In this document: positions 50,425 to 57,103 of the stretch, piece by piece
Layout of the letters: each line of letters begins with the position of its first letter
Numbering within the stretch: the stretch's first letter is position 1
Origin: Caulobacterales bacterium
GTDB lineage: Bacteria; Pseudomonadota; Alphaproteobacteria; Caulobacterales; Caulobacteraceae
DNA length: 64,000 nt
NCBI GenBank assembly: GCA_947474395.1
Contig: CANJID010000007.1
Coordinates: 1 to 64,000, forward strand
Direction of reading: 5' to 3'
Notes under the pieces: model-generated
The model's input: the letters and a program-made list of their open reading frames with translations, nothing else
What the model was told of the DNA's origin: nothing
The model's database searches: none
Program-made: the position numbers and the translations under genes

Positions 50425-50500
50425 GAGCCGGTAGCTCAGTTGGTAGAGCACGTGACTTTTAATCATGGGGTCCCGGGTTCGACCCCCGGCCGGCTCACCA
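50425..50500 (+). tRNA. tRNA-Lys (anticodon TTT)
   Basis: The 76-base sequence folds as a tRNA: acceptor GAGCCGG paired with CCGGCTC, D-arm GCTCAGTTGGTAGAGC, anticodon stem CGTGA/TCATG with loop CTTTTAA, variable GGGTC, T-arm CCGGGTTCGACCCCCGG, discriminator A and encoded CCA. Anticodon TTT reads Lys codons. It follows tgt by 59 bases. The decayed region begins just downstream. Confidence 0.97.
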
Positions 50501-50523: not shown

Positions 50524-50850
50524 TCAGCGCTGGAACATCATCAGGCCGAGGCGCCACATCCGCTGGAAATGCGCCTTCAGGAACGCCTCGCGGGCCTCAA
50601 GCGGGTGGGCCGCCAGGGCTGGATCGTCGCTCATCTGGCCGATGGTCCGCGATCCGTCGCCCCAGGTGAAGCCGGCCGCCTCCGCCGGATTGACGGTGAA
50701 ATTGATCCCCGACCGGTGGATCCTGAGGCCCTCGGGGGTCTCCAGAAGGTGGGCGCCCGGCATCTTGAACGGACGGTAGCCCAGCCAGTCCGCACCCTCG
50801 AACGAGACGGCATGCACCCGCCAGCCCCGTCGCCTCCGACAGCCGCCGCT
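50524..50850 (-). pseudogene. C-terminal remnant of an unidentified protein
   Basis: On the minus strand an open frame ends in about 100 residues including GWRVHAVSFEGADWLGYRPF, GAHLLETPEGLRIHRSG and a final WRLGLMMFQR. A GTG at 50817 is the only start and has no SD. The sequence has the feel of a conserved protein tail, but I cannot name the family. It joins in a different frame to the ppc remnant near 50820-50835, so it is read as half of a deletion fusion. Confidence 0.45.
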
Positions 50851-51487
50851 TCAGGGCCGGGACCTGCCGCAGGAAGGTGCGGGCGAAGATCGAGACGGCA
50901 TTGTCGATTTCGTCGGTGACCTGCAGCCGGGCCGGCCGCAGCATCCGCGTCTGCCAGAGGATGCGGATCTCTCGCTTGATCGCCGCCTCGATCCGCTCGC
51001 GCCCACGCGCCCTGGTCCCCCGCGCCTCGTGGGCGTCCAGCAGGGCGGCGATCGCCGCCTCGCGGTCCAGGACGGACTTTCGCCGCACCTCGGTCGGGTG
51101 GGCCGTGATCACCGGCGCCAGCAGCGCGCCCTTGAGGAACGCCCGCACCGCGTCCGGATCGAGGGCGCGGCCCGTCTCCATCAGCCGCTCCAGGGGCCGT
51201 CCCCCCTCGTCCCTCGCCTCGCGCCGGGCCGCCTGGTCGTCGGCGATGTTGGCGAGCTGGGAGAAGATCGAGAAGGCGCGGATCAGCACCAGCATGTCGG
51301 GATAGGCGGTCTTGGCCAGTCCCGCGCGCAGGCCCTCGTCGTCCTGCCCGCGGATGTGCTCGCCCACCGAGCGCCGCCGCAGGTCCTCCACCTGCCGGTA
51401 AGGCCCCTGCCCGTGCTGCTCGCGGATCACCTCGCCCAGCAGCCGCCCGAGCAGCCGCACCCCCGCCCTGCTCTGGCCGCCCGCCAT
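50823..51487 (-). pseudogene. ppc: Phosphoenolpyruvate carboxylase, N-terminal remnant
   Basis: About 220 codons from an ATG (51487) with GGCGGAG upstream. The part LLGRLLGEVIREQHGQG, DMLVLIRAFSIFSQLANIADD, LAPVITAHPTEVRRKSVLD and AAIKREIRILWQTRMLRP is clear PEPC N-terminal sequence, including the His-containing TAHPTE active motif. It stops matching after VPALKRRLSEATG near 50826, where a normal PEPC would continue for more than 600 residues. The catalytic core is gone, so oxaloacetate cannot be made by this copy. Confidence 0.8.
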
Positions 51488-51790
51488 AGGGATAATCTCC
51501 GCCACGTGGATTCTAGAGGCCATAACGGGCGCCGCCACGACAAGGGTCCGCCGCTTTGTAGCGCGCTCCGTCCCGGCCGATCCTTCGCAACCGCTCGAGG
51601 GCCGCCCAACCCGCCGTTTCAGCCCAGGAATTGAGCGGCATCGGCAAAGTTTGACCTACCCTTCGCTCTGCATTCTCTTTGCGGAAGGGAGTCGAACGCG
51701 GGGCGTTTAGAGAGCGATTTGCCCACGCGGCCTGATTGCGCGTTTAGACGAACGAACAGCGTAGGCGGCAGGACGGGAGGCCCTAGATCG
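51488..51790. other. Gene-free stretch between ppc and vsr remnants
   Basis: No convincing coding frame, hairpin or RNA gene is seen in these 303 bases. Some parts (51640-51720) are less GC-rich than the surrounding genes. It must contain whatever promoter served the ppc remnant, and may be the residue of an inserted segment. Confidence 0.5.
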
Positions 51791-51910
51791 GTGGCGACGA
51801 AATCCTCGGAGCCTGTCCTGGCTTCGCGCAGAAGAAATATGCAGGCGGTAAGGGGAAAAAATTCGCGCCCTGAAATAACCGTTCGATCAATGTTGCATCG
51901 GCTCGGTTAA
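51791..51910 (+). pseudogene. vsr (very-short-patch repair endonuclease) N-terminal remnant
   Basis: The frame from GTG 51791 gives RRRNMQAVRGKNSRPEITVR followed by SMLHRLG and a TAA. This is the conserved N terminus of Vsr endonucleases (normally R-x-x-N-M-x-x-I-R-x-K-N-T-x-P-E and then LHxxGxRYRLH), ending exactly before the catalytic part. Base composition is AT-richer than its neighbours. Vsr repairs T:G mismatches made by cytosine-5 methyltransferases, and no such methylase is in the window. Confidence 0.68.
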
Positions 51911-51919
51911 CTTCCCCCC

Positions 51920-52630
51920 ATGTCCGCCATGTTCGAAGAGATCGACTACGTTGAGACGCCGCTGGGGGCGATCTCGCTTCGGCGGCGCAGGGTGCTGGCC
52001 CTGGGGCGGGACGTGCATGAGGTGATGCTCGGGGACGAGCACCTGATGTCGAGCCTGTTCACGGAGGGGGAGATCGCCCTGACGACCTTGGGGCTGGCGG
52101 CGGTGGACGCGCCCGCGCTGGACGTGGTGGTTGGCGGCCTGGGCCTCGGCTACACGGCCCGGGCGGCCCTGGACGATCCGCGCACCCGCTCGGTCGTGGT
52201 GATCGAGGCCATGGCGCCGGTGATCGACTGGCACAGGCGGGGGCTGGTCCCGCTGGGAGCGGGCCTCGCCGCCGACCCGCGCTGCGAGCTCGTATGCGGG
52301 GACTTCTTCGCGATGATGGGCGAGGGCGGCGCGGCGGCGCCCCTGGTCCACGCTGTGCTGCTGGACATCGACCACTCGCCCCGGGCCGTGCTGAATGCGG
52401 GCAACGCCGCCTTCTACACCGTGGCGGGGCTGAAGGGCGTCGCGGCGCGGCTGGTCGTCGGCGGGGTGTTCGCCCTGTGGTCGGACGAGGCGCCGGAGCC
52501 CGGGTTCGAGGCCGTCATGGCCGCGGTTTTCGACCACTGCGAGGCGCACGTGGTGGAGTTCGACAATCCCCTGACCGGCGGCCGGTCGAGTTGCACCATC
52601 TATGTCGGGCGGGCGGGGGCCCCGACCTAA
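51920..52630 (+). CDS. Spermidine-synthase-like methyltransferase-fold protein, second copy
   Basis: A 236-residue protein with the same fold and motif order as the gene at 2922: VVVGGLGLGYTARAALDD near residue 72, VVVIEAMAPVIDWHRRG near 94, LLDIDHSPRAVL near 152 and VVGGVFALWSDE near 180. The second ATG, three codons later, is also possible. Polyamine transfer is unproven; an AdoMet-linked transferase is equally likely. It starts only 9 bases after the truncated vsr remnant. The stop overlaps that of the convergent amidohydrolase. Confidence 0.78.
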   Translation: MSAMFEEIDYVETPLGAISLRRRRVLALGRDVHEVMLGDEHLMSSLFTEGEIALTTLGLAAVDAPALDVVVGGLGLGYTARAALDDPRTRSVVVIEAMAPVIDWHRRGLVPLGAGLAADPRCELVCGDFFAMMGEGGAAAPLVHAVLLDIDHSPRAVLNAGNAAFYTVAGLKGVAARLVVGGVFALWSDEAPEPGFEAVMAAVFDHCEAHVVEFDNPLTGGRSSCTIYVGRAGAPT

Positions 52631-55870: not shown

Positions 55871-57103
55871 TTATTCGTCGACGGTCGGCCGCCAGATCAG
55901 GGCGACGGCGGCGATCCCGCCCACCAGCACTACCGGAAGCAGCGACTGCAGCACCTCGGTCGAGGTCTTGCCGCCGCTGAGCAGCACCCCGGCCAGCAAG
56001 GGCCCGGCGATGGCGCCGACGCGGCCCACGGCGGTCGCGGCTCCCGCGCCGGTGCCCCGGATGCGGGTGGAGTAGAAGCCGGGATAGAGGCCGTAGAGCA
56101 CGAACTGGCCGCCGACCACGAAGAAGCCCACCGCGATGGCGGCGATGATCGAGGTCACCATCGCCCCTGCCGGGGCTGCCCCCAGGGCGAACAGGCTCGA
56201 GGCCATGCCGATATAGGTCACGAACAGGATCAGGGCGCGGCGGCCCCGGTCCATCAGCCGGCCAAGCACCACGCCGCCCAGCACCGAGCCTCCGTTGAAG
56301 AACATCTGGATGATCATCCCCTGCTCGCGGTTGAACCCCTTGCCGCCCATCAGGAGGGGCAGCCAGTTCAGGAGCAGGTAGAGGATCAGCAAGGTGAAGA
56401 AGCTGGCGATCCAGAGCAGCAGGCTGGTCAGGGCCCGGTTCTCGGCGAAGAGCGCCGAAACGACGCTGGGGCGCACGTCGCCCGCGTCGGCGGCCATGGC
56501 CGCCGTATGTTCCTGGAAGCGGCGGGATTCCGGCAGGTACTTCCAGATTAGGGGCGCGAACAGGATCGGCACAATGCCGCCGATGTAGAAGATGGTCCGC
56601 CAGTCGCCCATCGGCCCCAGGAGGAAGCCGACGTAGCTGACGAGGGCGCCGCCGACCGGCATCCCTGCGAACACCAGGGCCACCGGCGCGGCGGAGGTGG
56701 CGCGCTTGGCCGCCTCTCCGGTCAGGGCGATCAGGTTGGGCGTCGCGCCGCCGAGGCCGAGGCCGGTCAGGACGCGGATGGCGACCAGGGTCTCGTAGCT
56801 CGGGGCGAAGGCGGTGATCAGGGAGAAGACCCCGAAGATGGCGACCGAGCCGACCAGCACGGTCTTGCGGCCCACCATGTCGGCGAGGCGCCCGCCGGCG
56901 ATGGCGCCGAGCAGGAGGCCGAAGGGACTGGCCGCCAGCACGAACTTCATCTGGCCGTCGTCGAGGTGGAAGGCGCCCTTGATTCCCCCTGCGGCGACCC
57001 CGGCCGACTGCAGGTCGATCCCCTCGATCACTGCCGCCAGGAAGCAGAGCAGGATGGTCAGCCCGACCCCCGCCGTTGCCTTGTCCTTGTCCGTCGCCGT
57101 CAT
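55871..57103 (-). CDS. MFS transporter, aromatic acid:H+ symporter (AAHS)-like
   Basis: A 410-residue twelve-helix transporter. The AAHS-type signature in the loop after helix 2 is LLLGAIAGGRLADMVGRKTV near residue 66; the first helix is AGVGLTILLCFLAAVIEGIDL. AAHS members take up benzoate, 4-hydroxybenzoate or similar acids. The substrate is not shown, but the amidohydrolase nearby could act on aromatic acids. Ends with a strong terminator. Confidence 0.85.
   Translation of the reverse strand: MTATDKDKATAGVGLTILLCFLAAVIEGIDLQSAGVAAGGIKGAFHLDDGQMKFVLAASPFGLLLGAIAGGRLADMVGRKTVLVGSVAIFGVFSLITAFAPSYETLVAIRVLTGLGLGGATPNLIALTGEAAKRATSAAPVALVFAGMPVGGALVSYVGFLLGPMGDWRTIFYIGGIVPILFAPLIWKYLPESRRFQEHTAAMAADAGDVRPSVVSALFAENRALTSLLLWIASFFTLLILYLLLNWLPLLMGGKGFNREQGMIIQMFFNGGSVLGGVVLGRLMDRGRRALILFVTYIGMASSLFALGAAPAGAMVTSIIAAIAVGFFVVGGQFVLYGLYPGFYSTRIRGTGAGAATAVGRVGAIAGPLLAGVLLSGGKTSTEVLQSLLPVVLVGGIAAVALIWRPTVDE

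Follow-up and report, generated by a model that had tools for sequence, protein, structure and literature searches.

Iyer et al. 2008 described gene neighbourhoods that contain Vsr together with cytosine methylases and restriction-fold nucleases (PMC2292703). According to an excerpt of another report (PMC12907096), the vsr genes of Neisseria adjoin methyltransferase genes, sometimes truncated, and in Caulobacter crescentus no cytosine methyltransferase gene is linked to vsrA, which is functionally linked to a methyltransferase gene lying far away on the chromosome. According to an excerpt of a third paper (PMC4176335), it is rare for solitary restriction-modification genes to originate from the decay of complete systems. 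A literature search on truncated vsr gave a match on another topic only. As far as the excerpt on Neisseria goes, partial loss of vsr-methyltransferase pairs was already described there. In that case the methyltransferase is truncated, whereas in the locus reported here vsr is truncated and the methyltransferase is absent. The locus can also be compared with vsr-first cassettes found in two genomes of the family (G206, contig C254, locus L189; G079, contig C16, locus L187) and on the plasmid RHOApd of Rhodovastum atsumiense (locus L160). The N-termini of these three Vsr proteins match the present one at 53-59% over 31-32 residues. Their vsr genes lead the group, are of full length and are followed directly by a cytosine-5 (C5) methyltransferase gene, with restriction-type genes beyond. 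In contrast, the present frame stops after 39 codons, and the next gene is the spermidine-synthase-like one.

The DNA analysed is a stretch of 64,000 nucleotides from a Caulobacterales bacterium (contig CANJID010000007.1), called the window hereafter. The features concerned are as follows.

50425..50500, + strand: tRNA-Lys (TTT), the end of a conserved queA-tgt-tRNA-Lys block (ARAGORN)
50524..50817, - strand: C-terminal relic, 97 aa, of a protein of ~398 aa (54-56% identity to frames on contig C58)
50818..51538, - strand: truncated phosphoenolpyruvate carboxylase (PEPC), N-terminal quarter (PF00311, E=8.9e-42, positions 3-225 of 919)
51791..51910, + strand: vsr stump, the N-terminal part of a Vsr mismatch endonuclease (39 codons and TAA; profile matches; GC3 0.538)
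51920..52630, + strand: spermidine-synthase-like gene, an open frame (NF002010 at E=0.029 only)

The vsr stump belongs to a known family and is an ordinary relic. Its GTG start at 51791 has GGGAGG 10 bases on its 5' side, as read from the sequence, and its TAA stop occupies 51908-51910; in the ORF listing the longest open frame over the stump begins upstream, at TTG 51719. Only 9 bases separate the stop from the next ATG at 51920. The frame ends at codon 39, about 25-30 residues short of the place where its relatives have the HG motif. What we take to be the catalytic core of Vsr, namely the PD and HGCFWH-type region seen in full-length relatives, is thus absent. The initial annotation had described the frame as the start of Vsr, cut off before the catalytic core and 9 bases ahead of the next gene, and in these respects it was correct.

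The assignment to Vsr was examined with several searches. In profile searches, positions 7-36 of 119 of TIGR00632 (Vsr) aligned with residues 10-39 of the stump at 25.4 bits (E=1.4e-5 over the whole library), and positions 7-35 of 74 of PF03852 aligned with residues 11-39 at 17.9 bits (E=0.0029). Vsr similarity was therefore found by both profiles. The scores stay under the curated whole-protein cut-offs (97.85 bits for TIGR00632, 27 bits for PF03852), as is expected of a fragment. A custom Vsr profile was built from 32 proteins, 30 from the top-scoring family loci and two from the own genome. With this profile the stump frame ranked first among 1,217 six-frame segments of the window at 16.1 bits, with 7.5 for the runner-up, and it surpassed the control maximum of 10.7 bits from 75,488 segments (50 dinucleotide shuffles and the reversed window). 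Searching the stump against 199 family genomes led to full-length Vsr genes, the best at E=4.6e-7 for one genome with 59% identity over query residues 8-39. Eight phage records also matched at E<=10, the best at 1e-3. On the other hand, the stump was absent from the own-genome matches to PF03852 at E<=0.001, was unmatched in PADLOC, which includes a Vsr model, at E<=1, and found no PDB chain with phmmer at E<=10. A short spurious frame resembling Vsr by chance would agree with the sub-threshold profile scores and with the empty PADLOC and PDB searches; against the E-value over the whole library, the rank above every control segment and the match to a full-length family Vsr, its probability is almost negligible.

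The codon use of the stump looks foreign to its neighbourhood. Its GC3 over 39 codons compares with 0.928 in 12 nearby genes (3,532 codons), and none of the 3,076 39-codon windows of those genes has a GC3 as low, the minimum being 0.718. Unlike the stump, the PEPC stub (GC3 0.936) and the putative methyltransferase tail beside it (0.878) are native-like. The raw GC of 51791-51919, at 0.543, is less special, since 36 of 6,388 non-overlapping windows are equally low, and drift in a dead gene could account for part of the low GC3 over 39 codons.

Vsr is over the cut-off in 159 of the 199 family genomes, the own genome included, so that a broken copy is no surprise. The own genome holds two Vsr matches (PF03852, E<=0.001) on contigs C25 and C32, both near full length. 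The stump shares 52% identity with the C25 protein over 23 residues and 44% with the C32 protein over 27. Within a 27-residue core, compared among sequences that were all picked by likeness to the stump, the two resident genes share 13 and 12 residues with it, the first three family matches 17, 16 and 16, and the Rhodovastum plasmid Vsr 17. Because of these identity figures, derivation from a resident gene is not favoured; the stump is no close copy of either. The C25 Vsr belongs to the same family as the stump, but it is complete, carries another N-terminal signature and is not close kin of the stump.

Both resident vsr genes stand near a C5 methyltransferase, in the order methyltransferase - cysK - vsr on C25 and methyltransferase - vsr - further defence genes on C32. 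Beyond these pairs, the own genome yielded no additional match to Vsr or to a C5 methyltransferase at E<=0.001. The order on C25 (locus L046, 6467-9183) is a repeated family arrangement around a cysteine-synthase-like gene, for which cysK is a putative name assigned in this analysis. Of the 32 loci checked (30 top-scoring family loci and two from the own genome), 31 have cysK no more than 1.5 kb away from vsr. A C25-type C5 methyltransferase lies within the same distance in 20 of the 30 family loci; the figure is 22 of 32 when both own loci are counted. The vsr gene on C32 is enclosed in a DISARM-like defence cluster (locus L047, 689-13887), in which PADLOC matched DrmMII, Vsr, NERD-helicase, DrmA, DrmB and MzaE in this order. 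An 870-aa protein of the cluster, unmatched in PADLOC, has a weak match to the DrmE family (NF038316, E=2.3e-13, below cut-off).

To what genes the nearest relatives of the stump are linked was then counted. At E<=0.01 the stump query gave 46 places in the family genomes. Genomes other than the own one hold 44 of these, and the best 19 of the 44, picked by likeness to the stump, were taken as loci. Their flanks, up to about 6 kb per side and in some cases clipped by contig ends, were searched with tblastn at E<=1e-6. A C5 methyltransferase was found in the flanks of all 19, and the same queries gave 0 of 19 in control stretches (260 kb). The methyltransferase lies upstream on the same strand in 14 loci, upstream on the other strand in one and downstream on the same strand in four. 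In the first and the third family matches (G079 and G206) vsr comes first with the methyltransferase directly downstream; beyond it stand convergent McrBC in one and convergent PD-(D/E)XK (DUF4420) and Z1 genes in the other. In the second match (G182) the methyltransferase is about 4 kb upstream of vsr. Among plasmids, 78 records matched the stump at E<=10 and seven loci were opened. In five of the seven, a C5 methyltransferase is annotated within 5 kb of vsr; in two, none is. The first-listed plasmid match, that of Rhodovastum, shows vsr, the methyltransferase, a DUF3883 gene and then convergent PD-(D/E)XK and Z1 genes. The initial annotation stated in general that vsr genes travel with m5C methyltransferases and restriction enzymes; as regards the methyltransferase, this fits the 19 family loci and both resident genes, but not two of the opened plasmid loci or vsrA of Caulobacter crescentus.

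At the site itself, a Pfam scan of 17 frames around the stump (for two frames, most of the length was covered) detected neither a methyltransferase nor a nuclease besides Vsr itself, and PADLOC detected none in eight of those frames. A nuclease of a family unknown to Pfam and PADLOC would escape such a search. C5 methyltransferase matches of the own genome (E<=0.001) fall on C25 and C32 only, and none at the stump locus. Judged from the comparison with its relatives, a methyltransferase-linked origin of the stump is likely. It is possible that a restriction-modification system once stood at the site. The proposal that such a system was inserted here and then mostly deleted agrees with the foreign vsr stump and with the methyltransferase linkage of its nearest relatives, but there is no methyltransferase or nuclease relic at the site. 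That proposal is plausible, and it goes one step beyond the evidence.

We consider it likely that the stump is the dead 5' remainder of a vsr gene that was acquired horizontally, arrived with a C5 methyltransferase and lost the rest by deletion. The gene would have been acquired together with the cytosine-5 methyltransferase, probably at the head of a vsr-methyltransferase(-nuclease) cassette of the kind seen in some of its closest relatives. A deletion running from vsr codon 40 to just before the spermidine-synthase-like gene would have taken the remainder. Since the methyltransferase is directly downstream of vsr in G079 and G206, one deletion from mid-vsr could remove all else. It also counts against this explanation that the methyltransferase is upstream of vsr in 15 of the 19 relatives and that nothing similar is upstream of the stump. 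It is unlikely, though worth weighing, that the stump is instead the relic of a vsr gene outside any restriction-modification cassette, either solitary or partnered with a methyltransferase elsewhere, which was acquired and later broken. The two plasmid loci with no annotated C5 methyltransferase within 5 kb are in favour of such an origin, as is the distant chromosomal partner of Caulobacter crescentus vsrA given in the excerpt of PMC12907096; Oliveira et al. was also cited in its favour. The methyltransferase near every one of the 19 nearest family Vsr genes examined speaks against it. The stump adds one more example of how methylation-linked genes come and go, here in a probable relative of Caulobacter. 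If the site ever carried a cassette, its decay left only the first part of one gene. The stump by itself changes little.

The stretch between the tRNA-Lys and the stump looks like an eroded junction. The queA-tgt-tRNA-Lys block, in which queA and tgt are putative names assigned in this analysis, is kept in two relatives (G008 and G018), but the sequence after the tRNA is not. Past tgt-tRNA-Lys, no alignment was obtained among G008, G018 and G010 (blastn, E<=1e-10), and an empty site in the relatives is therefore not definable. The family collection of 199 genomes represents the genus by the own genome alone. In the region of the PEPC stub, G008 and G018 have 2.7 kb in common. An island with a duplicated tRNA end was considered and rejected, as no second 25-base tRNA-Lys 3' end occurs in the window with up to three mismatches. 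Direct repeats between 50380 and 58000 are short and imperfect, except for one exact 16-base pair at 56004 and 56895.

On the minus strand at 50524-51538, PEPC is reduced to its N-terminal quarter, which is joined to the tail end of a different gene. The 97-aa tail abuts the PEPC stub on the same strand, and contig C58 carries two complete tandem frames whose C-termini are 54-56% identical to it. The tail has no Pfam match, and its parent of about 398 aa is read from sequence as a putative SAM-dependent methyltransferase. The PEPC stub is the sole PEPC match in its own genome (E<=0.001; genome 99.65% complete). As this sole match is truncated, the organism may have lost PEPC.

Two truncated genes lie between the tRNA and the stump. 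Instead of losing a single module, the stretch may therefore have undergone erosion or rearrangement in general. The three truncated genes within 1.4 kb, in a draft genome of 103 contigs, may also recall an assembly artefact, that is, a false join near 51910-51919 with vsr possibly whole in the cell. This is quite improbable, because nothing corresponding to the missing part of vsr turned up elsewhere in a genome of such completeness, which has only the two near-full-length Vsr matches, and because the stump frame ends in a stop with the next gene beginning 9 bases on.

The stump, as the probable remnant of a deleted vsr gene, is most likely functionless now. It is very improbable that it has been kept as a leader, with the vsr start region giving transcription and ribosome entry and the 39-codon frame coupling translation to the spermidine-synthase-like gene. 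The start of that gene has no purine-rich ribosome site just upstream, as seen in the sequence. No consensus promoter or terminator was found at the stump region, and the RNA of 51660-51935 folds no better than shuffles (z -1.01).

The spermidine-synthase-like gene itself has no Pfam match. The DNA match to the nearest relative (G013) starts at 51919, which is query position 1415. In the six relatives compared, none of the 15 neighbourhood proteins of the window that were tested, other than that of the spermidine-synthase-like gene, is beside the homolog. At E<=1e-40, 14 of the 198 other family genomes have homologs with 54-76% identity, and relatives are also present in records named Streptomyces, Neptunomonas and others. 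This scattered distribution suggests horizontal spread of the gene.
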